Virus record (IMG/VR): IMGVR_UViG_3300048833_000262
Location: 1 to 27,245 of that record
Source of the DNA: a virus
DNA length: 27,245 nucleotides
Reading direction: 5' to 3' (one strand)
Numbering within the stretch: position 1 is the first letter of the stretch; each line of letters begins with the position of its first letter. Made by a program: the position numbers and the translations under genes. The notes below the pieces were generated by a model that saw only the letters and a program-made list of their open reading frames with translations, had not been told where the DNA came from and did no database searches. Positions 1-7,411 of the stretch are shown piece by piece.

Positions 1-19
1 AACCTATGTATCGGGCGTG

Positions 20-79
20 CGCTAACAATTCATTCAAGCCGACGCCGCTTCGCGGCGCGGCTTAATTCAGGCGTTATGC
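20..79 (+). repeat. attC site 1 (60 bp, aadA-like)
   Basis: R'' box CGCTAAC at 20-26, inner arms CAAGCCGA and CGGCTTAA around a GCCGC-TTCG-GCGGC hairpin, and R' box GTTATGC at 73-79. Cleavage is expected after G73. Its 1L arm belongs to a cassette mostly left of the window. The unpaired A in the left arm gives the standard attC polarity on the + strand. Confidence 0.9.
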
Positions 80-315
80 CCCAATCGCTGCATTGCGTAG
101 GACTTCCGCATGTCGTGCCCCTGCATCGCCGCCAGTTCGTGCAGCAGCTTGTCTCGCGCTGCCGGGGTGGCCTTCTCCACCAGTTCGCAATCGGTCAGCG
201 CCGCCCATCCTTCGGGCCATCCACACCACATCAAGCGGTCGCCCTTTACGCCAGCCACCAGCCATTCTTCGCCGGTAGGTTTGTGCTTCACCGTGTCGCC
301 TGTATCAATGTCCAT
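67..315 (-). CDS. Cassette-encoded small protein, 82 aa, unknown function
   Basis: The ORF starts at ATG 315 behind GGAGGCGAC, a good ribosome-binding site. An upstream in-frame ATG would lie in or before attC2 and is less likely. The protein has a motif of the type GDTVxHxPTGEEWLVAxV followed by LMWCGWPEG. I associate this pattern with small integron-cassette and phage proteins that have a beta-rich N-terminus; that is recollection, not a search. A charged helical C-terminal half follows. The last codons (CAT AAC GCC TGA) are supplied by attC1, so the frame runs through the recombination point at 73/74 and uses a TGA inside the neighbouring attC. No catalytic motif is visible. Confidence 0.78.
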   Translation of the reverse strand: MDIDTGDTVKHKPTGEEWLVAGVKGDRLMWCGWPEGWAALTDCELVEKATPAARDKLLHELAAMQGHDMRKSYAMQRLGHNA

Positions 316-335
316 GTCGCCTCCGGTCGGTTGTG

Positions 336-423
336 GCATAACAATTCGCTCAACCCGACGCCGCTTCGGGTTCACGGTGAAATCACGCGCTCACGGCGGC
401 GCGGGTTAGCTCAGGCGTTAGGT
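336..423 (+). repeat. attC site 2 (88 bp)
   Basis: 1L box GCATAAC (336-342), inner arms CAACCCGA and CGGGTTAG, 1R box GTTAGGT (417-423). The terminal structure is longer than in site 1. The 1L box pairs with the TTATGCC that starts its own cassette at 74, but poorly with the 1R of this site, which belongs to the next cassette. Confidence 0.9.
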
Positions 424-648
424 TGCATCCGGGATATAAGGCTCGCTGCAATACAGGTCGGGGAATTGCCGATCAATGTCGCGCGTCATCACAAATCCGT
501 CTCGCAGTCCTTCCTCGTCAATGACAAACAGGCCCATGTAGGCGTCAAGCCATTTGCACTCTTTCGGCCCGGAGGGGAACAGGGCGACAAACTTGGCCTT
601 GTCAAACCCAATTTCTTTTGCACGTTCCTCACACTGATAAATATTCAT
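418..648 (-). CDS. Cassette-encoded small protein, 76 aa, unknown function
   Basis: Starts at ATG 648, about 17 nt inside the upstream attC core, with a weak Shine-Dalgarno (GAGAAG). It stops at TAA 420-418, a stop made by the attC 1R box itself. The protein begins MNIYQCEERAKEIGFDKAKF and later has FPSGPKECKWLDAYMGLF and an acidic, aromatic C-terminus. It looks like a compact soluble alpha/beta domain without membrane segment or signal. I do not recognise a family with certainty. Codon use is credible on this strand, while the opposite strand is open only as a long frame that also runs through the attC hairpins. Confidence 0.75.
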   Translation of the reverse strand: MNIYQCEERAKEIGFDKAKFVALFPSGPKECKWLDAYMGLFVIDEEGLRDGFVMTRDIDRQFPDLYCSEPYIPDAT

Positions 649-664
649 TGGCTTCTCGTTGGCA

Positions 665-753
665 ACCTAACAATTCATTCAAGCCGAGCCCGCTTCGCGG
701 TCTCGGTGCTACCGGCTCGCATCGGGCGGGCCGGCTTAACTCAGGCGTTAGCT
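665..753 (+). repeat. attC site 3 (89 bp)
   Basis: 1L ACCTAAC (665-671), arms CAAGCCGA and CGGCTTAA, 1R GTTAGCT (747-753). The flank GGCAACCTAAC pairs with TTAGGTTGC at 418, the other end of the same cassette. Confidence 0.9.
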
Positions 754-960
754 GGCACGAATCGCCCTCGCGCAGTCGGACAGGGGTGTATCGGCGATGT
801 TACCGATTGCGTCCTCGCAAACCTGCGCGCAAGCCTCGCGCGTCATCGCTTCGATCTTCGCGGCGAACGCTTCCAACAATCTTCCGGTCGGTGGCAACGT
901 CATAACCAGATCGCTACCGCATACCTCGCGCCACATTTCAACTGCAATTGTTCTGTTCAT
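748..960 (-). CDS. Cassette-encoded small protein, 70 aa, phage-like
   Basis: ATG 960 is preceded by TACGGAGCGAGAC, a clear ribosome-binding site. The stop TAA 750-748 is formed by the attC 1R box. The protein is mostly helical, with LLEAFAAKIEAMTREACAQV and a C-terminal CARAIRAS. The REACAxVCE ... CAxAIR pattern is one I associate with small accessory proteins of temperate phages of beta- and gammaproteobacteria, inferred from memory. Cysteines are repeated (AQVCE, SDCAR), but no metal site is obvious. No membrane segment. Function unknown. Confidence 0.75.
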   Translation of the reverse strand: MNRTIAVEMWREVCGSDLVMTLPPTGRLLEAFAAKIEAMTREACAQVCEDAIGNIADTPLSDCARAIRAS

Positions 961-982
961 GTCTCGCTCCGTAGTGGGCGCC

Positions 983-1072
983 AGCCAACAATTCGTTCAA
1001 GCCGAGACCGCTTCGCGGTCTCGCGCGTGTCTCACTCGCCGGCTGCGGTCCGGCTTAACTCAGGCGTTAGGT
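983..1072 (+). repeat. attC site 4 (90 bp)
   Basis: 1L AGCCAAC (983-989; the usual TAAC is CAAC here), arms CAAGCCGA and CGGCTTAA, 1R GTTAGGT (1066-1072). The flank GCCAGCCAAC matches the cassette start TTAGCTGGC at 748 with one transition. Confidence 0.88.
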
Positions 1073-1273
1073 TGCATTGGTATTCTTTCGCGGCTCGTGG
1101 ATCGTTTTCAGCATCTTCATCGCCAGCTTCACCGCGCCGTGGTCGTATTCATGCGTGAGCGTGCTGCCGTCGTCCAGCTTGTAGGCGCAAAGCCCGCCGG
1201 GATCACCGGCTGTTCGCACTGCTGACCGGGTAAAGATTGGCTGGCCGTTTATCAGGATGTTCACGGTAATCAT
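1067..1273 (-). CDS. Cassette-encoded small protein, 68 aa, with structured RNA leader
   Basis: ATG 1273 follows GGAGGCGAC, the same ribosome-binding site as the ORF at 67-315. TAA 1069-1067 is supplied by the attC 1R box. The protein begins MITVNILINGQPIFTRSAVR, a beta strand pair, then DDGSTLTHEYDHGAVKLAMK. A small beta-beta-alpha fold is plausible. Similar short proteins occur in phage early regions as far as I recall; no enzymatic motif is visible. It differs from the other cassettes in having about 170 nt between the attC and the start codon, filled by a predicted folded RNA that ends only 3-4 nt before the Shine-Dalgarno, which suggests control of translation. Confidence 0.78.
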   Translation of the reverse strand: MITVNILINGQPIFTRSAVRTAGDPGGLCAYKLDDGSTLTHEYDHGAVKLAMKMLKTIHEPRKNTNAT

Positions 1274-1285
1274 GTCGCCTCCATT

Positions 1286-1438
1286 CGATTCAGTTGAGCG
1301 GGCCGGCTGGAAGTTGCCGGCTTAGGTCGCCGCTTACGCGCTCATGCCAATCATCTGTCCCCGCAGCGGTTGTGGGTGGTTGGCATTTGACCTTCACGGG
1401 TTAACGGGTCTCCACCCCGTAGCCGCTCAACTCAATCG
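1286..1438 (-). ncRNA. Candidate structured leader RNA in a cassette (about 153 nt)
   Basis: A closing helix joins 1286-1301 and 1423-1438 (16 bp, one G-G mismatch on the - strand). Inside it are a GCCGGC hairpin (1302-1307/1316-1321), AGGTC with GACCT (1324-1328/1389-1393), ATGCCAA with TTGGCAT (1344-1350/1380-1386) and ACGGG with CCCGT (1404-1408/1416-1420). GGGTGG at 1374-1379 can pair with CCACCC at 1412-1417, a possible pseudoknot or switch. The helix ends just before the GGAGG of the ORF starting at 1273. Strand is chosen by that position; a + strand RNA could fold too. I do not recognise a known RNA family. Confidence 0.55.
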
Positions 1439-1444
1439 ACTGCA

Positions 1445-1504
1445 ACCTAACAATTCGGTGTAGCCGAACCCGCTTCGCGGGTCGGCTAACCTCAGCCGTT
1501 AGGC
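1445..1504 (+). repeat. attC site 5 (60 bp)
   Basis: 1L ACCTAAC (1445-1451), arms TAGCCGA and TCGGCTAA around CCCGC-TTCG-CGGG, 1R GTTAGGC (1498-1504). It has the variant right arm CTCAGCCGTTA rather than CTCAGGCGTTA. The flank TGCAACCTAA pairs with TTAGGTTGCA at 1067. Confidence 0.9.
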
Positions 1505-1677
1505 CGCAGGATGTCGGTCACGCGATCCCTTGCCGTTTCAACATCCAGCACGGTGTCCGCAAGCTCTTTCGCTGTCGGCTCCATGCCGTTGTGCTTGCAG
1601 AGAATCCACGCGGCGCGCAGCGCACTCGCGGCTTTCTGCAAGTGGCTTTCAAGTTCGGTTAGCTGTTCCTTCCGCAT
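1492..1677 (-). CDS. Cassette-encoded helical protein, 61 aa, unknown function
   Basis: ATG 1677 (MRKEQLTELE) is chosen over the upstream ATG in the same frame, which would start inside attC6; TACGGAGAACGAA gives a Shine-Dalgarno at suitable spacing. The protein is almost entirely helical with heptad-like leucines in the first 30 residues and an acidic second half. The tail RPNG and the TGA stop come from attC5, so the frame crosses the cleavage point. The identical tail ends the ORF at 2594-2803, which shows these residues are contributed by attC and not by the gene. Function unknown. Confidence 0.72.
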   Translation of the reverse strand: MRKEQLTELESHLQKAASALRAAWILCKHNGMEPTAKELADTVLDVETARDRVTDILRPNG

Positions 1678-1698
1678 TTCGTTCTCCGTAGGCCAGCG

Positions 1699-1789
1699 GC
1701 CTAACAATTCGTTCAAGCCGAGCCCGCTTCTCAGCTTCAACGGGGTTTGTGTGTTCCGGCAGCGGGCCGGCTTAACTCAGCCGTTATGT
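1699..1789 (+). repeat. attC site 6 (91 bp)
   Basis: 1L GCCTAAC (1699-1705), arms CAAGCCGA and CGGCTTAA, 1R GTTATGT (1783-1789). The flank GCGGCCTAA pairs with TTAGGCCGC at 1499. The terminal stem is the most divergent of the nine (TTCTCAGCTTCAACGG). Confidence 0.88.
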
Positions 1790-2032
1790 GCTTGCCTTGC
1801 GGGCCTTCACGCAGGTGAAGCACCGGTTGCCCATGTGCATCGTTGGCTTTCCGCATTCGATGCACTTCTGATCGGCGCCCTTAGCCCTATCCGCGCCTTC
1901 GTCGTATCCGGTTTGCCACGCTTCGTGCTCGTCGGTGTGCGCCGCGTATGGGTTGCTTACGCCATCCAGTTTCAAGCCGTGACCAATGCCGGATTCGTAA
2001 GCTGTGCAGATCATGTAAACCTTGCTGACCAC
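1784..2032 (-). CDS. Cassette-encoded RMF/CrpP-like small protein with C-terminal CxxC pairs, 82 aa
   Basis: The start is GTG 2032 with AGGAGGGAAC in front, better placed than ATG 2014. TAA 1786-1784 is formed by the attC 1R box. The middle region, with GxGxGLKLDGVSNPY followed by EAWQTGYDEG, resembles the ribosome modulation factor/CrpP type of small domain (conserved G, NPY and W-x-x-G). The C-terminus has KCIECGKP and NRCFTC, two CxxC pairs likely to bind zinc. If the resemblance is right it could bind ribosomes or nucleic acid, but this rests on motif memory only. No membrane segment. Confidence 0.75.
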   Translation of the reverse strand: MVSKVYMICTAYESGIGHGLKLDGVSNPYAAHTDEHEAWQTGYDEGADRAKGADQKCIECGKPTMHMGNRCFTCVKARKAST

Positions 2033-2055
2033 GTTCCCTCCTTAGTTCCTCCCGC

Positions 2056-2115
2056 ACATAACAATTCGCTGTAGGCGAGACCGCTTCGCGGCCCGCCTAA
2101 GCTCAGCCGTTAGAA
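2056..2115 (+). repeat. attC site 7 (60 bp)
   Basis: 1L ACATAAC (2056-2062), arms TAGGCGA and CGCCTAA around ACCGC-TTCG-CGG, 1R GTTAGAA (2109-2115). The flank GCACATAA pairs with TTATGTGC at 1784. Confidence 0.88.
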
Positions 2116-2526
2116 CTCAATTCGGGCATCGCCGAACTTGACGCTTTTGCTTGCGCCGCGTGACCAGCACCCCGGAGAAGTGTTCACCCAGCCCGCCGCA
2201 ATGCGGCCTTCGTCTATCAGGACTTGCATCGCGTCGTACATCGACGGCGACTTCCAGTTCCCGGACGCCTTCGACTTGACATACATGGCGGTCAGCTTGT
2301 CCCACTCGCGCACCAAGCCAACCCACTCGGGGTATTTCTCGGCCACTTCGTGCAACCGTGCCCGATATGCGGGGAACGCCTCAAGCAATCGGTGGCAGCG
2401 GCCAAAGTCACTCGGGTCACTCGGAACGTCTGCGGACCTTGGCGGAGGCGTGCCTTCCATGACGTGCATGATTGTTTTGCTGCTGGTGCCGGTGTCGTCA
2501 CCCATCATCCATTCAAGCGGGGTCAT
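2110..2526 (-). CDS. Cassette-encoded phage-like protein, 138 aa, unknown function
   Basis: ATG 2526 is preceded by TACGGAGAACCAA, nearly the same ribosome-binding leader as the ORF at 1492-1677. TAA 2112-2110 is formed by the attC 1R box. This is the largest cassette protein. It starts MTPLEWMMGDDTGTSSKTI, continues with a region containing DFGRCHRLLEAFPAYRARL and YPEWVGLVREWDKLTAMY, and ends with a beta-rich region around AAGWVNTSPGCWSRG. I associate this layout with hypothetical proteins in Pseudomonas- and Xanthomonas-type prophages, not with classical resistance cassettes; that is an unverified recollection. It suggests that phage genes have been packaged as cassettes. Confidence 0.8.
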   Translation of the reverse strand: MTPLEWMMGDDTGTSSKTIMHVMEGTPPPRSADVPSDPSDFGRCHRLLEAFPAYRARLHEVAEKYPEWVGLVREWDKLTAMYVKSKASGNWKSPSMYDAMQVLIDEGRIAAGWVNTSPGCWSRGASKSVKFGDARIEF

Positions 2527-2546
2527 TTGGTTCTCCGTATGTTGAG

Positions 2547-2606
2547 TTCTAACAATTCGGTGTAGCCGAAACCGCTTCGCGGTTCGGCTAACCTCAGCCG
2601 TTAGGC
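2547..2606 (+). repeat. attC site 8 (60 bp)
   Basis: 1L TTCTAAC (2547-2553), arms TAGCCGA and TCGGCTAA around ACCGC-TTCG-CGGT, 1R GTTAGGC (2600-2606). The flank TTGAGTTCTAA pairs with TTAGAACTCAA at 2110, an 11-bp self-match. Confidence 0.9.
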
Positions 2607-2803
2607 CGCAGGCTCAGAACTTCCGGCGGGAAGCCTGGCGTAACGATCACGGCGGACATGCCGGCGCTGTAGAACAAGCCTCCCGGAGTCTGCTTTGGTT
2701 CAAGCGCCCATGCTTTAACATAACCGTGCGCGTCCGCTGTGATGTAATTCGCCCACTCTGGGGCTTGCTTCCTGTATTGCTCCAGAAAATTGCCTTGTTC
2801 CAT
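2594..2803 (-). CDS. Cassette-encoded small protein, 69 aa, unknown function
   Basis: ATG 2803 is preceded by GAGGAGGCGCA, a strong ribosome-binding site; a longer in-frame extension to 3103 would cross attC9 and the next gene and is rejected. The protein starts MEQGNFLEQYRKQAPEWANY and contains GYVKAWALEPKQTPGGLFYS, a small alpha/beta domain rich in aromatic residues. It ends RPNG-TGA using attC8 sequence, exactly like the ORF at 1492-1677. No known family assigned. Confidence 0.72.
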   Translation of the reverse strand: MEQGNFLEQYRKQAPEWANYITADAHGYVKAWALEPKQTPGGLFYSAGMSAVIVTPGFPPEVLSLRPNG

Positions 2804-2823
2804 TGCGCCTCCTCGGGCCATCG

Positions 2824-2913
2824 GCCTAACAATTCGTTCAAGCCGAGACCGCTTCGCGGCCTCGGCGCACACCGTATCGCATCGCGCGGTCAGGCATAAC
2901 TCAGCCGTTATGC
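2824..2913 (+). repeat. attC site 9 (90 bp), terminal site of the array
   Basis: 1L GCCTAAC (2824-2830), arms CAAGCCGA (left) and GGCATAA (right, diverged from CGGCTTAA), 1R GTTATGC (2907-2913). The flank CGGCCTAA pairs with TTAGGCCG at 2601. No further TAACAATTC site with a matching GGCGGCATAAC flank follows to the right, so this is the last site. Its 1R supplies the stop codon of the PrtN-like gene. Confidence 0.88.
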
Positions 2914-3180
2914 CGCCTGATGAATCCGCTTCCACTCCTTCGCCGCTTCTTCGTGCTTGGCATCGATGTACGCGGCCAGTGCGTCTGCGGAGACCATCCA
3001 CGGAGACTTCTGGCTGCCCAGGCGGAAAACGGGAACAGGCAGCGCCTGGCGCACGGCGGCGCGCTTGGCTTCGTCGGGTTTCAGGCCGAAGTGGTGGCAG
3101 CACTTTTCCAGCGGAATCTGCGCGGTGCCGAACTCGGCGCAGAGGAGGAAGAAGGTGCGGGTGTTGGCGGGTGCGGTCAT
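2908..3180 (-). CDS. PrtN-like pyocin-activator family regulator, 90 aa
   Basis: The segment NTRTFFLLCAEFGTAQIPLEKCCHHF, then VPVFRLGSQKSPWMVSADALAAYIDAKHEEA, matches the PrtN pattern: NTFFLL at the N-terminus, an AxFGTAxIPLE motif, a basic R-x-GSQK turn and a terminal AxYID helix. PrtN activates pyocin genes in Pseudomonas; PrtN-like proteins in prophages often sit beside the integrase and may act as excision or early regulators (established family knowledge plus inference). ATG 3180 lies one base after the upstream TGA. ATG 3192 is an alternative, but the AGGAGG touches it directly. The TAA stop (2910-2908) is created by the attC9 core, so this gene joins the phage operon to the cassette array. 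Confidence 0.82.
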   Translation of the reverse strand: MTAPANTRTFFLLCAEFGTAQIPLEKCCHHFGLKPDEAKRAAVRQALPVPVFRLGSQKSPWMVSADALAAYIDAKHEEAAKEWKRIHQAA

Positions 3181-3181
3181 G

Positions 3182-3436
3182 TCAGCTGCCATCCTCCTGG
3201 CAGATAGGCATCGGCCGCGGCACGATATCCAGCAGGCGGTCGATCTGGTCGCGCAAGGCGACCACGGTGGCGGTCTGCAGGTGCGGGGCGGCCAGCTGGA
3301 TGTTGGCTTCGCGCAGGGCGTGTTCGGCCTGTTGCAGCCAGTCAGCGTGCGTGGCGAGTGCTTGCGCGGTGGACAGGTCGAACTTGCGCAGGGACTCCGC
3401 GATGGCGCGTGCGCGGCTGGCGGTGAAGCGCTCCAT
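3182..3436 (-). CDS. Small helical phage protein, 84 aa
   Basis: Starts at ATG 3436, overlapping the upstream stop as TGATG, which indicates translational coupling. A longer frame to 3535 exists but would overlap its neighbour heavily. The protein begins MERFTASRARAIAESLRKFD and is helical throughout, with an Ala/Gln-rich stretch and a final acidic EDGS. It ends one base before the PrtN-like start, and its last codons hold the AGGAGG for that gene. No family recognised; a small regulatory or inhibitor protein of the early-left operon is plausible. Confidence 0.72.
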   Translation of the reverse strand: MERFTASRARAIAESLRKFDLSTAQALATHADWLQQAEHALREANIQLAAPHLQTATVVALRDQIDRLLDIVPRPMPICQEDGS

Positions 3437-3675
3437 CAGACGCCCCGCATGACGCGCTGGGCTTCGGCGATGCGCGTGCTGAGCGCTTCGTTTTCGTCGC
3501 GCAGGTGCTGCAGGGCCTGGCGATCGCGCGCCCATTCGCGGGCGCGCAGTTCATAGGCTTCGGCGTTGATGTCGTTGCCGTTGCCGCGTTCGGCATGGGC
3601 CACGGCTTCAAGGAACTCGGGGCCGGTCATGGCGGTGGCGTGCAGTTGCATGGTGGTCTCCGGGTCGAGGGTCAT
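3436..3675 (-). CDS. Small helical phage protein, 79 aa, coiled-coil-like C-terminus
   Basis: ATG 3675 overlaps the upstream stop as ATGA. The protein begins MTLDPETTMQLHATAMTG and its second half (EAYELRAREWARDRQALQHL, then RDENEALSTRIAEAQRV) has heptad spacing of leucines and charged residues expected of a coiled coil. No catalytic motif, signal or membrane segment. Unknown function; member of the coupled early-left operon. Confidence 0.72.
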   Translation of the reverse strand: MTLDPETTMQLHATAMTGPEFLEAVAHAERGNGNDINAEAYELRAREWARDRQALQHLRDENEALSTRIAEAQRVMRGV

Positions 3676-4247
3676 GGCGCGCCATGCCGGCGGGGGTGAA
3701 CGGCGCCGCGCCGGCGCAGCAGTGGGGTTCCCGCGTGGCTGTGGTCGAAGCGCAGCGGGTTGCCGCTGTCGTGCGGGCCCAGCACCTGCACGCGCCCGCC
3801 GCGTGCCTGGAACTGCTCGACGGTTTCGGTGCGGTTGCCCGCGTAGTGGATCTTTGGCGGCGGTGGCGGGTTAGCCACGCGGATGTAGGAAGCCGGCGCG
3901 GGCTTGCGCGCCTTGGGTGACGCTGGTGCGGCGGCGGCCTTCGCCTGGCGCCTGGCGCGCTGCCCGGCGATCTTGCGCTGGACCGGATCGCCCGGCTTCC
4001 GGCGCAGCTCGCGCAGATCCACGCACGTGGTGGGCGTGGGCCAGTAGCGCGCCGGGTTGTGCCGGCGGCCGTCTTCATCGCGCCGCAGCTTTCCGAATTC
4101 CACCAGCTGCGACAGCCTGGCGCTGATGCTGGTGATCTTGGCGCGCGGGGCGATACCCAGTGCAGCGGCGATTTGCCGAAGGGTGATGCCGGGGCTGGCC
4201 TTCACCGCCTGCTGGATGGCCATGGACGTGCTGATGTGCGCGTTCAT
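3672..4247 (-). CDS. Winged helix-turn-helix protein, 191 aa
   Basis: The N-terminal 70 residues read as a winged HTH: AIQQAVKASPGITLRQIAAA, then LGIAPRAKITSISARLSQLV and a wing GKLRRDEDGRRHNPARYW. A basic, Ala/Pro-rich linker follows (residues about 95-130, including PPPPPKIHY), then a C-terminal region with an ETVEQFQARGGRVQVLGPHDSG segment. DNA binding is likely; the target is unknown. The start ATG 4247 overlaps the previous stop as ATGA. It is the largest gene of the early-left operon and a candidate operon regulator. Confidence 0.75.
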   Translation of the reverse strand: MNAHISTSMAIQQAVKASPGITLRQIAAALGIAPRAKITSISARLSQLVEFGKLRRDEDGRRHNPARYWPTPTTCVDLRELRRKPGDPVQRKIAGQRARRQAKAAAAPASPKARKPAPASYIRVANPPPPPKIHYAGNRTETVEQFQARGGRVQVLGPHDSGNPLRFDHSHAGTPLLRRRGAVHPRRHGAP

Positions 4248-4366
4248 GCCGCCACCGACAGGTAGGCGATGCGGCGATCGATGGCGCGCAGGATGCGGTG
4301 GTAGGCGCGCAGCCGGCCTTCGGCCAGGGCGCGGGTTTTCATGGCGTAGAGCTGATGCAGTTTCAT
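4244..4366 (-). CDS. Very small basic protein, 40 aa
   Basis: A longer frame to 4720 is an artefact: ATG 4366 (MKLHQLYAMKTRALAEGRLR) overlaps the upstream stop as ATGA, in keeping with the rest of the operon. The product is a basic helical peptide, RAYHRILRAIDRRIAYLSVAA, likely an amphipathic helix. It may bind nucleic acid or a partner protein. No family recognised. Confidence 0.6.
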   Translation of the reverse strand: MKLHQLYAMKTRALAEGRLRAYHRILRAIDRRIAYLSVAA

Positions 4367-4605
4367 GCGGCCGCCTGCGCCAGCTTGAGCCCGCGCGGTG
4401 TGAGGGTGACGCAGCTGGGCAGGGTGCGGTCGTTGAAATCCGCCAGCATGGCGTTGACCAGGTCGTTGGCGGTGCGGCGGGTGACGGCCGGGCTGCTGGC
4501 GAAGGTGCCGGCGGCGCGGAAGCCCTTGCAGCAGCGCACCAGCCGGTGCTGTGGCGCGGCGGCGGCCAGCTGCAGCGCCTCGCGGAGTTTGGGGGTGATG
4601 TCCAT
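4363..4605 (-). CDS. Small phage protein, 80 aa, HTH-like
   Basis: Starts MDITPKLREALQLAAAAP at ATG 4605, overlapping the upstream stop as TGATG. The middle, RTANDLVNAMLADFNDR, is helical, and the end, CVTLTPRGLKLAQAAA, resembles the wing and last helix of a small winged-helix protein (TPRGLxLA is a common pattern). A DNA-binding role is possible but not proven. No zinc or catalytic motifs. Confidence 0.68.
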   Translation of the reverse strand: MDITPKLREALQLAAAAPQHRLVRCCKGFRAAGTFASSPAVTRRTANDLVNAMLADFNDRTLPSCVTLTPRGLKLAQAAA

Positions 4606-4859
4606 CAGCGGATCCTCGTGGTGGCCCAGCGCAGCACGTCCTGCGCCTGGGCAAGGGTGAGTGGGCCGGGGTTGCTGCTGCCGTCGCGGAAGGCGGTGCC
4701 GGCGAGCAGGGATTGCGCACGCATGCGGGCGCCGGTTTCGTCCGGGAAGACCGGTGGCGCGAGCGGGGACCATCGGCCAGGTGCGCGTGCGGCGGCGGCC
4801 TTGGCGCGCACCAGCCGCAGGATGGCGTGCGGGTTGCGGATGTTGAGGGCGCGGCTCAT
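4605..4859 (-). CDS. Small phage protein, 84 aa
   Basis: ATG 4859 (MSRALNIRNPHAILRLVRAK) overlaps the upstream stop as ATGA. The first 25 residues are strongly basic, followed by a Pro-rich turn (GRWSPLAPPVFPDETG) and a helical end, LTLAQAQDVLRWATTRIR. No family recognised. A longer frame to 5057 would conflict with the neighbouring coupled gene. Confidence 0.66.
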   Translation of the reverse strand: MSRALNIRNPHAILRLVRAKAAAARAPGRWSPLAPPVFPDETGARMRAQSLLAGTAFRDGSSNPGPLTLAQAQDVLRWATTRIR

Positions 4860-5101
4860 GCCTGCGCCTCCAGCGCCTGCTGCATGTACATGGGTTGCAT
4901 GGGCCACACGTGGCAATGCGGCACGCGGGCGTTGAGCAGCGGCTGCATCACGTAGAAGGACACGCCGGGGTTCACGTGCGCCAGCGCTTCCGCGGCGGAG
5001 CGCGCTTTGCCGATGTTGGTGTAGCGCGTCTTCGGGGCGTCGAAGTGCGGGGACCACACCAGCCAGAAGCCGGTGGTGTTGACGGGCACCTGCACCTTCA
5101 T
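4856..5101 (-). CDS. Small phage protein, 81 aa
   Basis: ATG 5101 (MKVQVPVNTTGFWLVWSPHF) overlaps the upstream stop as ATGA. The first half suggests beta strands with DAPKTRYTNIGKARSAAEALA, a pattern like a small single-domain alpha/beta protein. The C-terminus is rich in methionine, histidine and proline (VPHCHVWPMQPMYMQQALEA), which could bind metal; this is only suggestive. Function unknown. Confidence 0.68.
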   Translation of the reverse strand: MKVQVPVNTTGFWLVWSPHFDAPKTRYTNIGKARSAAEALAHVNPGVSFYVMQPLLNARVPHCHVWPMQPMYMQQALEAQA

Positions 5102-5208
5102 GGCAGCACCCCGGCGGCCTGCGCCAGCGCCACGATCAGCGCGCCCGCGGTGCCGAGGGCGAGCGCGGCGTTTTCCGCGAAGGTGGGGGGGTAGGCGGGG
5201 CGCTTCAT
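5098..5208 (-). CDS. Tiny membrane protein, 36 aa
   Basis: ATG 5208 (MKRPAYPPTF) overlaps the preceding stop as ATGA, and the gene ends in an ATGA overlap with the next. One hydrophobic segment (ALALGTAGALIVALAQAAGV) follows a short positively charged start, so a single-pass inner membrane peptide with N-in topology is likely. The genes on both sides are coupled to it, which supports translation. Function unknown. Confidence 0.6.
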   Translation of the reverse strand: MKRPAYPPTFAENAALALGTAGALIVALAQAAGVLP

Positions 5209-5372
5209 GCCGCACCTTCGATGGGCGTGGCGTGGTAGACGGCCAGCCAGATGGCGCCCAGCTCGATCAGCACCAGCACCGGCCACGGCGTGCTGGCCAG
5301 CAGCAGCAGGGCGAGCAGCCACCAGCGGCAGGCGGTGGCGTCTTCGATGCGTTCCAGGATGGTGAGTTGCAT
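5205..5372 (-). CDS. First gene of the PL operon: small membrane protein, 55 aa
   Basis: Reading from ATG 5372 gives MQLTILERIEDATACRWWLL and then a hydrophobic run through ALLLLASTPWPVLVLIELGAIWLAV, ending EGAA at TGA 5207. Two short transmembrane segments separated by a Pro turn are likely. GGAGG sits 4 nt before the ATG and is also the 3' arm of the leader hairpin at 5377-5396. The stop overlaps the next start as ATGA. As the first gene behind PL it would be strongly expressed on induction. No family recognised. Confidence 0.68.
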   Translation of the reverse strand: MQLTILERIEDATACRWWLLALLLLASTPWPVLVLIELGAIWLAVYHATPIEGAA

Positions 5373-5376
5373 GCGA

Positions 5377-5494
5377 CCTCCACGAAGTGGTGGAGGGCTG
5401 CCGCGACAGACCGGGGGAGCGGCCTGTCGCGGCGCCGGGGTGCTGATCAGGGGTCAGCGAACCCGGGTGCCCTGTCTGGCGGATGCCGGACAGG
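5377..5494 (-). promoter_or_regulatory. PL leader with three hairpins, last one hiding the Shine-Dalgarno
   Basis: On the - strand transcript: hairpin 1 at 5494-5471 (CCTGTC with GACAGG, extended by inner pairs), hairpin 2 at 5433-5400 (GCCGCGACAG with CTGTCGCGGC, 10 perfect pairs), and hairpin 3 at 5396-5377 (CCTCCAC with GTGGAGG). Hairpin 3 contains the GGAGG of the first operon gene. Only the hairpins are observed; antitermination or translational control is inferred. Confidence 0.65.
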
Positions 5495-5498
5495 ACTG

Positions 5499-5526
5499 AT
5501 ATTAGGGTATTCCTAACCTATGTCAA
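5499..5526 (-). promoter_or_regulatory. PL promoter of the early-left operon
   Basis: Consensus -35 TTGACA (5526-5521), 16-bp spacer, -10 TAATAT (5504-5499), so transcription would start near 5492 and run left. The operator at 5502-5516 lies between and over the two boxes, so repressor binding should block polymerase. Confidence 0.85.
5502..5516. promoter_or_regulatory. Operator OL1
   Basis: TTAGG-GTATT-CCTAA, a 15-bp palindrome with the same half-sites as the operators at 7108 and 7135. It overlaps the PL spacer and -10 box. Confidence 0.8.
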
Positions 5527-5540
5527 TAGGTTGAACCTAA
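5526..5540. promoter_or_regulatory. Operator OL2
   Basis: ATAGG-TTGAA-CCTAA, one mismatch to the palindrome TTAGG-N5-CCTAA. It touches the PL -35 box and lies one base from the stop codon of the exported-protein gene (5542). Confidence 0.72.
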
Positions 5541-5541
5541 T

Positions 5542-5934
5542 TTATTTAATTGAAGCGGCGTCACTGACTGGAGGAGTTGCGCCTTTATCCAGGATGCTGC
5601 TGCAAGTGCTGACCGCCACTCTCAGATTCGCGTTGTTTAAAACCGGATCGATGGTGTCGGGGATGATGGTGTTATCTCCCCAGACCATAAAGGGCTTATA
5701 GCCGTTGTAGGCGCCGTAGGAATTCTTGGCGTTGAGTTCGCCGCAGACCATGTAGTCCTCGCCGCGAAAGCCGGCCCGCACATTGCGGAATTTGGCGCTG
5801 TCCGGGTCTTTCAAGTCGTAAGCGAGGCTGCGCTTGACCTTATCGATCGCCGTTTGCTCCGGCGACGTCGGCTGGGTGTTGGGGTTGTTCTGTGCGGCCA
5901 GTGCCAGTGTGGCAGCAAATATGGTTTTGATCAT
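5542..5934 (-). CDS. Exported protein downstream of the repressor (candidate lysogenic conversion gene), 130 aa
   Basis: ATG 5934 (MIKTIFAATLALAA) begins a short signal peptide with likely cleavage near AxA-QNN. The longer frame to 6012 overlaps the upstream gene and is rejected. The mature part contains LAYDLKDPDSAKFRNVRAGF and VCGELNAKNSYGAYNGYKPF. Two cysteines remain (VCGE and STCSS) and may form a disulfide in the periplasm. I recall similar DPDSAKFRNV ... VCGxVNAKNSYGxYxG proteins among prophage-linked exported proteins, function unknown. It starts 2 nt after the lipoprotein stop, so both genes are probably cotranscribed with the repressor in lysogens. Confidence 0.78.
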   Translation of the reverse strand: MIKTIFAATLALAAQNNPNTQPTSPEQTAIDKVKRSLAYDLKDPDSAKFRNVRAGFRGEDYMVCGELNAKNSYGAYNGYKPFMVWGDNTIIPDTIDPVLNNANLRVAVSTCSSILDKGATPPVSDAASIK

Positions 5935-5936
5935 GG

Positions 5937-6341
5937 CTAGAGCTTCGGCTTGTACTTCATCTGGCCTTGCAGTTGGTATGGGTTCGTGCCGCCAGTCGGG
6001 GTGAACTGGCACTTTTGTACTTCCATCGCCTTGCGCACAGCTTCCCTCTCGCCGCGTACGTTGGCGAGTTCTGCCGCTTCGATGCCGTCGCCTTGACCGA
6101 AGCCGTACCAGAACGCTTGCACCTTGCTGGTCTTCACGCGTTGTTCCTGGGCAATAGCGAGCTGGCTTTCACGCCTGCTGATGCTGTCGTACTCAACAGA
6201 GAGCCGTGGGCAGTCGATGCCCTCGTACTTCAGGCTGTTGACGTACGCGCCGGTGATCTGGCTTGTCTGCGTTGGCATGTTGAGACAGCCGGCAAGCCCT
6301 GCTGCGGCCAGTATCAATGCGATTCGCGATGTCCCTTTCAT
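5937..6341 (-). CDS. Lipoprotein downstream of the repressor, 134 aa
   Basis: The N-terminus MKGTSRIALILAAAGLAGCL is a type II signal peptide with lipobox LAGC (Cys19). The mature protein is charged and helical, including LSVEYDSISRRESQLAIAQE, GFGQGDGIEAAELANVRGER and two further cysteines. An outer or inner membrane lipoprotein is expected. Its position 22 bp after the repressor, in the same direction, suggests expression from the lysogen. Surface exclusion or another conversion phenotype is possible but is inference; no family is recognised. Confidence 0.8.
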   Translation of the reverse strand: MKGTSRIALILAAAGLAGCLNMPTQTSQITGAYVNSLKYEGIDCPRLSVEYDSISRRESQLAIAQEQRVKTSKVQAFWYGFGQGDGIEAAELANVRGEREAVRKAMEVQKCQFTPTGGTNPYQLQGQMKYKPKL

Positions 6342-6363
6342 GTGGCCCCTTTATGTGGGCGGA

Positions 6364-7083
6364 TCAGCCGCCCTGCCGATAAATGAACTCGCCGTGGATC
6401 CTGAGAAGGTCTTCGTGATCGGGGGCGATGACTTCGTCCGGATAGCGATTCTTGTCCGGGTTCGCGCTTTCCAGCACCCAGCCGCCATTGATGGATCGGC
6501 GCAGTCGCTTGATCTTCAGGCCGTCTGGATGGTCGATCAGGTAGATCAGGCCGGAGCGCGGGCGGGTCTTCGACGTGTCGAAAATGACGATGTCGCCGTC
6601 GACGATGAACTCCGCCATGCTGTCGCCATCCGCCCACACGGCCATCGCGTTTTCCGGCTTCACTTTGTAGCGATCGAACCACCCTGCTTCCTTGATCAGT
6701 GGTGCACGTTGTTCGGCATCCCAGTTGATCGCGCCGCCGCCGCACGAGCCTCGCGCATCGCTGAAGGGAATCTCTCCGATGTGCGCGTCTGGCGATGGTT
6801 CGCGGACGGCGTAACGGCTGAATTTCGCGTTGCTTGGGGTGTCGCCGAAGTACAGCGCATCGAACGTGCTGCCGTGATCGATGGCGATCTGGCGTGCCAG
6901 GTCGATGTTGGGCCGGAAGCGGCCATTTAGCCAATCGTTGGCCGTGACCGCGCTGACCTTGTAGCGGTTGCTGAGGTACGTCCCGGCGCCGCGGCGCTGG
7001 TGGCCGGAATCACCGAGAAGATCGAGCAGCCGCTTGGCAAATTCGAGGTTTTCTTTGGTGGCTGCGGGCTTTGTCTTAGGCAT
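6364..7083 (-). CDS. CI/LexA-type phage repressor with S24 peptidase domain, 239 aa
   Basis: The N-terminal part (about residues 15-75) contains a helix-turn-helix, with YKVSAVTANDWLNGRFRPNI as the recognition region. The C-terminal part is the S24/LexA autoprotease: Ser155 in ADGDSM, Lys192 in KIKRL, 37 residues apart as in LexA, and a probable Cys114-Gly115 cleavage site in RGSCGGG. RecA-stimulated self-cleavage after DNA damage would lift repression of PL and PR. ATG 7083 is preceded by GGGAGG (8 nt) and a second AGGAG next to it. It faces the Cro-like gene and should bind the TTAGG-N5-CCTAA operators, directly or with Cro. Confidence 0.93.
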   Translation of the reverse strand: MPKTKPAATKENLEFAKRLLDLLGDSGHQRRGAGTYLSNRYKVSAVTANDWLNGRFRPNIDLARQIAIDHGSTFDALYFGDTPSNAKFSRYAVREPSPDAHIGEIPFSDARGSCGGGAINWDAEQRAPLIKEAGWFDRYKVKPENAMAVWADGDSMAEFIVDGDIVIFDTSKTRPRSGLIYLIDHPDGLKIKRLRRSINGGWVLESANPDKNRYPDEVIAPDHEDLLRIHGEFIYRQGG

Positions 7084-7107
7084 CTCCTAATCCTCCCAGC
7101 AACTCGA

Positions 7108-7122
7108 TTAGGAAATACCTAT
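7108..7122. promoter_or_regulatory. Operator OR1
   Basis: TTAGG-AAATA-CCTAT, one mismatch to the palindrome. It lies directly upstream of the PR -35 box (shares its first T) and 24 bp upstream of the repressor start, so it can act on both directions. Confidence 0.72.
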
Positions 7123-7152
7123 TGACAAGTGATATTAGGTTGATCCTAAATA
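7122..7152 (+). promoter_or_regulatory. PR promoter of the early-right operon
   Basis: TTGACA at 7122-7127 with an imperfect -10 (CTAAAT 7146-7151 or TAAATA 7147-7152, spacing 18-19 bp). Start would fall near 7158, almost at the Cro-like ATG (7160), giving a leaderless or nearly leaderless mRNA. The operator 7135-7149 lies in the spacer and -10 region. Confidence 0.65.
7135..7149. promoter_or_regulatory. Operator OR2
   Basis: TTAGG-TTGAT-CCTAA, perfect half-sites. It occupies the PR spacer and -10 region, as OL1 does in PL. Confidence 0.8.
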
Positions 7153-7159
7153 GCGCCCC

Positions 7160-7411
7160 ATGAGCAATGACGCACTCGATCGAGCAATCGAAATCGTTGG
7201 CAGCCAACAGGCGCTGGCGGACGGCCTGAACATCAAGTCGCCCAGCATTTCCGGCTGGCGGCAATCCGGCAAGGTGCCGGTCGAGCGGTGCGCTGCGATC
7301 GAGGCCGCAACCGGTGGGCGGGTGACCCGCAACGAATTGCGGCCCGATGTCTTCGGCCCGCTCCCACCCCGTCCGGCAGACCAAGACGAACCCCAACGCG
7401 AGGTGGCGTGA
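7160..7411 (+). CDS. Cro/YdaS-like repressor, 83 aa
   Basis: Starts MSNDALDRAIEIVGSQQALA and continues with a helix-turn-helix: LADGLNIKSPSISGWRQSGK, then VPVERCAAIEAATGGRVTR. This is the YdaS/Cro type (alpha-helical, HTH near residues 15-40, with VPxERCxAIE after the recognition helix). It is divergent from the CI-type repressor over the shared operators. It probably represses the CI promoter in the lytic cycle. No Shine-Dalgarno is visible; the start probably lies at the 5' end of the mRNA. The C-terminal tail is proline-rich (PLPPRPADQDEP). Confidence 0.88.
   Translation: MSNDALDRAIEIVGSQQALADGLNIKSPSISGWRQSGKVPVERCAAIEAATGGRVTRNELRPDVFGPLPPRPADQDEPQREVA

Follow-up and report, generated by a model that had tools for sequence, protein, structure and literature searches.

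Inverted integron-type cassette arrays in phages point to a phage-specific gene exchange pool

In the textbook view, integron cassettes are bacterial genes aligned with their attC sites for reading from Pc. What, then, is an attC array doing in a phage genome when each of its genes runs against its own attC? The window analyzed here, a stretch of 27,245 bases that is the whole of its IMG/VR record and open at both ends, begins with such an array:

21 to 79, + strand: attC 1 (short)
67 to 315, - strand: cassette 1 ORF, 82 aa; a 96% identical amino acid copy lies in an inverted array of the Lysobacteraceae genome G245
337 to 423, + strand: attC 2 (long)
418 to 648, - strand: cassette 2 ORF, 76 aa
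666 to 753, + strand: attC 3 (long)
748 to 960, - strand: cassette 3 ORF, 70 aa
984 to 1072, + strand: attC 4 (long)
1067 to 1273, - strand: cassette 4 ORF, 68 aa, phrog_3491; leader of ~170 nt, its end nearly identical in contig L025
1446 to 1504, + strand: attC 5 (short)
1492 to 1677, - strand: cassette 5 ORF, 61 aa
1700 to 1789, + strand: attC 6 (long)
1784 to 2032, - strand: cassette 6 ORF, 82 aa, GTG start, weak RMF similarity
2057 to 2115, + strand: attC 7 (short)
2110 to 2526, - strand: cassette 7 ORF, 138 aa, phrog_1229 (E 9e-25)
2548 to 2606, + strand: attC 8 (short)
2594 to 2803, - strand: cassette 8 ORF, 69 aa, phrog_1972
2825 to 2913, + strand: attC 9 (long), where the array meets the excisionase gene

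All nine attC sites were called by both an attC detector and a covariance model. A preliminary description of this DNA had given them canonical, aadA-like polarity on the + strand, and this is borne out: when the bottom strand is folded, the L'' extra-helical base lies on the 3' arm, and the covariance model scores all nine at 71-97 bits on the + strand while just two reach 19-20 bits on the - strand. With the R''-L''-L'-R' layout, the hairpin fold and more than the at least two sites expected of integron gene cassettes and CALINs (clusters of attC sites lacking an integrase), the array also resembles a CALIN in having no adjoining integrase gene, the left end of the record being open. We found neither IntI nor attI in the window record, which begins at base 1 with that open end, and the array lacks the intI, attI and Pc of a complete integron, what lies left of base 1 being outside the record.

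The eight complete cassettes do all code on the - strand, as had been claimed. Most of their ORFs have a Shine-Dalgarno (SD) match shortly upstream of the start, their stops lie in or adjoin the R' box, and several match phage proteins on that strand (phrog_1229, phrog_3491 and RMF-like). They depart from a typical though not strictly defining trait of cassettes, an ORF that runs in the direction of its attC; the cassettes are inverted relative to their attC sites.

By gene content the window is a temperate phage, whose backbone also encodes a minor tail protein. Its other landmarks are:

2908 to 3192, - strand: excisionase / PrtN-like gene, the last backbone gene ahead of the array, with its TAA within the R' box of attC 9
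5499 to 5526, - strand: promoter-like site TTGACA-16-TAATAT, PL-like, heading the left operon
6364 to 7083, - strand: CI-type repressor gene
9127, + strand: DNA primase
13862, + strand: terminase
16699, + strand: portal
21693, + strand: head protein

In agreement with the preliminary description, the cassettes share the direction of the phage left early operon; the excisionase gene adjoins them, and a promoter-like site lies at the operon head. This site (5526-5499, - strand) is the sole promoter-like match in positions 1-7200 and counts by its position, because shuffled sequences also yield about one match. From there down to base 1 no terminator-like site was found on the - strand, and an Rfam search gave no match. 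We infer from this layout that the cassettes would be transcribed from a CI-controlled, PL-type promoter.

Are these cassettes in the integron sense? In integrons, two neighboring cassettes each contribute to the attC between them, and it is the first and last bases of the same cassette that pair. Viral cassettes carry this signature of circle-derived, complementary ends: their own ends match at 6.25 of 8 variable positions, against 3.96 for random pairs and 4.04 for the two halves within a site. Host integrons gave 6.88, 4.37 and 4.46 in the same test. The L stem of viral attC sites covaries (81 cells changed on both sides versus 17 in shuffles), and the sites fold better on the bottom strand. 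The inverted phage cassettes are genuine integron-type cassettes.

To place the window among other arrays, attC-bearing loci were gathered by DNA patterns from IMG/VR and GTDB genomes, and attC sites were located with a position-weight detector that gave 0 matches in 0.5 Mb of shuffled sequence. Genes were called with our own codon and SD scorer, trained on these loci with an equal bonus for both strands. Phage contigs for gene maps and breakpoint reading were chosen partly by orientation; the gene counts of the survey (122:12, 28:292 and 54:2) come from sets chosen independently of it. Forty-four IMG/VR arrays without IntI, near-duplicates removed, held 122 antisense versus 12 sense genes, and SD was present in 111 of the 122; 37 of these arrays were antisense-majority and 7 sense-majority. 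Host integrons that share this attC type showed the opposite, with 28 antisense versus 292 sense genes, confirming that ORFs in ordinary integrons mostly run the other way. The prospect that many host integrons might have the same inverted layout, which would have counted against a phage system, did not materialize, as 72 of the 76 host loci were sense-majority, two antisense-majority and two tied (locus orientation, viral versus host arrays, Fisher p=4e-21). A second attC type, for which new phage loci were fetched with a separate pattern, repeated this in other phages, with 54 antisense versus 2 sense genes adjoining 43 verified sites; the few host sites of this type adjoined 6 sense versus 1 antisense gene.

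The wider search of phage and prophage DNA for inverted arrays that the preliminary description had called for thus returned this second attC family, one prophage and, besides the window, another 36 phage contigs, unrelated in type. Cassette genes were co-directional with the adjoining phage genes in nearly all mapped phage arrays. Flanking genes encode RecE-like exonucleases in L014, L194 and L205, a Sak4-like protein in L015, terminases in L150 and L163, a replicative helicase in L172, a Mu-type transposition protein in L001 and an integrase in L020. The backbones that carry inverted arrays (RecE, Sak4, Mu-like, TerL-bearing) are unrelated to one another. With its recurrence in unrelated phages and a prophage and the opposite orientation in hosts, the proposed phage accessory-gene system of inverted cassettes is supported. 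An integron integrase beside the array, the other observation named as adverse to it, was absent as well: IntI was found in none of the phage records whose arrays are inverted-majority, and phage-borne IntI was rejected on this ground. Viral records with IntI above the cut-off (L021/L022/L161 and L186) have sense or mixed arrays, and PF00589 proteins of any kind occurred in 15 of 50 viral records. IntI above the cut-off was found in 14 of the 15 host genomes carrying the window's attC type.

The window phage probably has a host among the Lysobacteraceae. Its portal has 58-60% matches in 2 of 247 genomes of this family, and the closest match of its terminase is Stenotrophomonas phage S1 (57.8%). 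One of the two genomes, G245, carries a prophage whose main matches to the window backbone have 68-77% identity and whose left operon terminates in an inverted attC array. A second inverted array, on another contig of G245, holds the copy of cassette 1, and apart from these arrays the genome contains an IntI-bearing integron whose genes are mostly sense. One bacterium therefore contains both polarities, with one attC family and an integrase potentially available to both.

We then compared genes between arrays. Many of the 198 attC-adjoining viral genes have relatives beside attC elsewhere in viral loci, antisense in all the matches listed, and no relatives of the viral cassette genes were found in 119 host integron loci, which gives no sign of cassette traffic by way of host integrons. 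In this limited sample, the phage and host cassette pools look separate. The similarity of shared phage cassette genes extends from G|TTRRRY, ahead of the start, to RYYYAA|C, where the gene stops, and is lost outside these limits. Contig L025, a relative of the window phage with a backbone 75-80% identical, has the same excisionase-array junction and different cassettes; the end of the cassette 4 leader recurs in L025 at a distance of two places from the excisionase gene, versus five in the window. Comparison of these loci thus shows that cassettes have been exchanged between phages, the same locus holding different cassettes in related phages. Homologues of cassette 1 in L212-L215 had no attC nearby, nor did prophages retrieved solely via the excisionase gene.

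The boundaries of exchange differ between the two kinds of array. In host integrons the downstream core tracks the gene (0.96, versus 0.61 for the upstream core), and a further comparison agreed. Phage genes, by contrast, often appear to have had either flanking core swapped. Because both cores seem exchangeable, the standard R'-only IntI reaction alone fails for some phage cases.

Three other readings of the locus have to be weighed against this evidence. That a phage captured an ordinary host integron fragment, with inversion by chance or through a misread strand, is hardly credible, even though host integrons do contain rare antisense ORFs (28 of 320 genes) and phage capture of host integrons is documented (PMC9892861). 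The inversion recurs in 37 arrays (p=4e-21) and in the second attC type, and no genes are in common with the 119 host integron loci. This reading is refuted by recurrence; a chance event or misread strand is ruled out by recurrence, SD and protein families together, and contamination with a host integron by the G245 prophage and by L025. A less remote but still unlikely reading treats the attC-like sequences as short homology linkers, annealed by phage recombinases (RecE/T, Sak4 or Red-like) with no integron integrase, so that attC polarity would be a relic or an RNA-hairpin requirement. It would fit the RecE-like exonucleases and Sak4-like annealing protein among the neighboring phage genes, the cores that swap independently of genes, a chimeric attC with two core types (L002:5328-5395) and the more stable RNA hairpin formed by the mRNA-sense strand. 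However, identity between shared genes ends at the R boxes and not at scattered points in the core, linker exchange does not predict the complementary ends of a gene, and the core and extra-helical features required by IntI are retained.

The third reading, which we judge improbable and somewhat more so than linkers, reverses the functional polarity: the cut would be made at the R'' end, by some recombinase or by IntI working on the top strand, and the mobile units would be gene-then-attC in the transcribed direction. Cassette 1 fits this: between the window and G245 its downstream core is conserved (0.98), its upstream core is less alike (0.68), and the cut falls at G|TTATGCC; upstream cores also differ in L205/L002 and, by direct sequence reading, in window/L025 and L026/L012. 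Yet the upstream core is kept in L003/L027 (0.96), neither core is kept in L205/L002, and of one gene found in four copies, two have no core downstream. The bottom-strand folding bias is canonical, and IntI recombines the bottom strand ~1000 times better than the top strand (PMC8946536).

We consider it probable, with real room for doubt, that these arrays are phage-specific inverted CALINs, read from a phage early promoter and mobilized in trans by host IntI. In the left early operon of this temperate phage the array comes directly after the excisionase gene, where an early promoter would transcribe the inverted cassettes along with the phage early genes. IntI expression is under SOS control. 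The host integron integrase would excise and insert cassettes in trans, most likely upon prophage induction, when the SOS response would raise both phage replication and intI expression. In a published assay, IntI1 recombined attC sites of other phages with attI1 (PMC9892861), and it is the choice of the bottom strand that orients ordinary cassettes correctly (PMC8946536). Because strand choice sets orientation, inverted cassettes would be expected to go unexpressed in a host integron, as would host cassettes in a phage array.

Why the phage cassettes are inverted can be addressed only speculatively, through exposure of the non-template strand, a filter on polarity or greater stability of the mRNA hairpin. 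In the inverted layout, the recombinogenic bottom strand is the non-template one of the operon. If an ordinary host cassette, even one with an anti-phage gene, landed in the array, it would run against the phage promoter and stay silent, and phage-type cassettes alone might therefore be retained. Third, the mRNA-sense strand of viral attC sites does form the more stable RNA hairpin. The cause of the polarity difference thus becomes testable, as transcriptional strand exposure, a host-cassette filter or mRNA structure.

How do these arrays relate to known systems? Lambdoid phages have modular accessory (moron or nin-type) regions with small exchangeable early genes at the end of an operon; unlike these, the phage arrays are bounded by attC with cassette-type ends. 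The sedentary chromosomal integrons of Lysobacteraceae, with Xanthomonadales-type attC, share the attC family, the fold and the own-end complementarity, but have their own IntI, sense ORFs, genes tied to the downstream attC core and a different gene pool. The reverse integrons of Spirochaetota (see PMC9668308) are also unusual in orientation; in these, however, it is the integrase gene that is reversed, whereas in phage arrays each cassette ORF is reversed against its own attC and there is no integrase. Closest are the phage CALINs described in one study (Qi et al., 2023; PMC9892861), which are likewise integrase-less attC arrays in phage genomes with small ORFs and DNA methyltransferase cargo. 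Inversion is unreported there, TJE1 and PH101 being called typical, and the TJE1 array is sense in our reading too. ctTUS972 (MW202573), presented in that study merely as several ORFs between sites, is antisense by our reading, with the deposited CDS on + and attC on -; a strict pattern check missed its attC sites, which were called by the other reading. Across 50,697 phage records, the window's attC type gave no array except integron-type matches (P1 and a Salmonella element). No antisense phage attC arrays were found in the literature searched, subscription papers and preprints being outside its scope, which points to a phage-specific inverted-cassette exchange pool as new to that literature.

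A large phage-borne class of opposite polarity would mean two cassette pools of opposite sign. More tentatively, and with the odds somewhat against it, unrelated phages may share a pool moved by host IntI whose polarity isolates it from host cassettes and silences them, and through which counter-defense genes are exchanged. If so, phages exploit the host gene-capture machine to trade such genes in isolation from the host pool. Host integrons have recently been described as anti-phage libraries (2025 papers cited in PMC12444791), and phage arrays carrying anti-restriction genes would mirror them. The arrays would offer phages a site-specific route for swapping early genes, DNA methyltransferases and Mom included. 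Among 91 inverted-array genes, the majority have no known function, and those that can be recognized belong to phage early functions or DNA modification: Dam, N6/N4 and D12 methyltransferases, Mom, dATP/dGTP pyrophosphohydrolases, NinX and N4 gp49/Sf6 gp66.

An inverted array in the Lysobacteraceae genome G245, which holds a related prophage, carries cassette 1 of the window, and a probable DNA-modification gene was found as an inverted cassette at another locus of the attC survey:

L350:1-1636 (G245 contig C29), near the contig start, inverted array carrying window cassette 1
L168:2138-2752, inverted cassette, gene probably of the Mom family (DNA modification)

The C29 array, which is followed by an HTH_17 gene, is probably the other end of the G245 prophage array, although the contig has no reported integrase match. 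The array at L175 is one of few that are sense-majority without an integron integrase; this phage contig also has three excisionase/PrtN-like genes within ~3 kb.

In the window, cassette 4 has a leader of ~170 extra nt (1274-1446), in which 1282-1301 and 1423-1442 form an inverted repeat. The leader end, from ~1375, is a possible regulatory element and has a near-identical counterpart in the related phage L025. Operator-like TTAGG/CCTAA palindromes are repeated at 5500-5545 and 7085-7150, the two promoter regions flanking CI.

At three surveyed loci, an attC-type hairpin seems to carry the next gene's SD and ATG in its loop, so that the L''/R'' arm would encode that gene's N-terminus:

L230:236-331, attC-type hairpin, SD and ATG apparently in loop
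L249:1310-1406, likewise
L238:8376-8474, likewise

The attC at L002:5328-5395 is chimeric, its left half of one core type and its right half of another, meeting at the apical loop.
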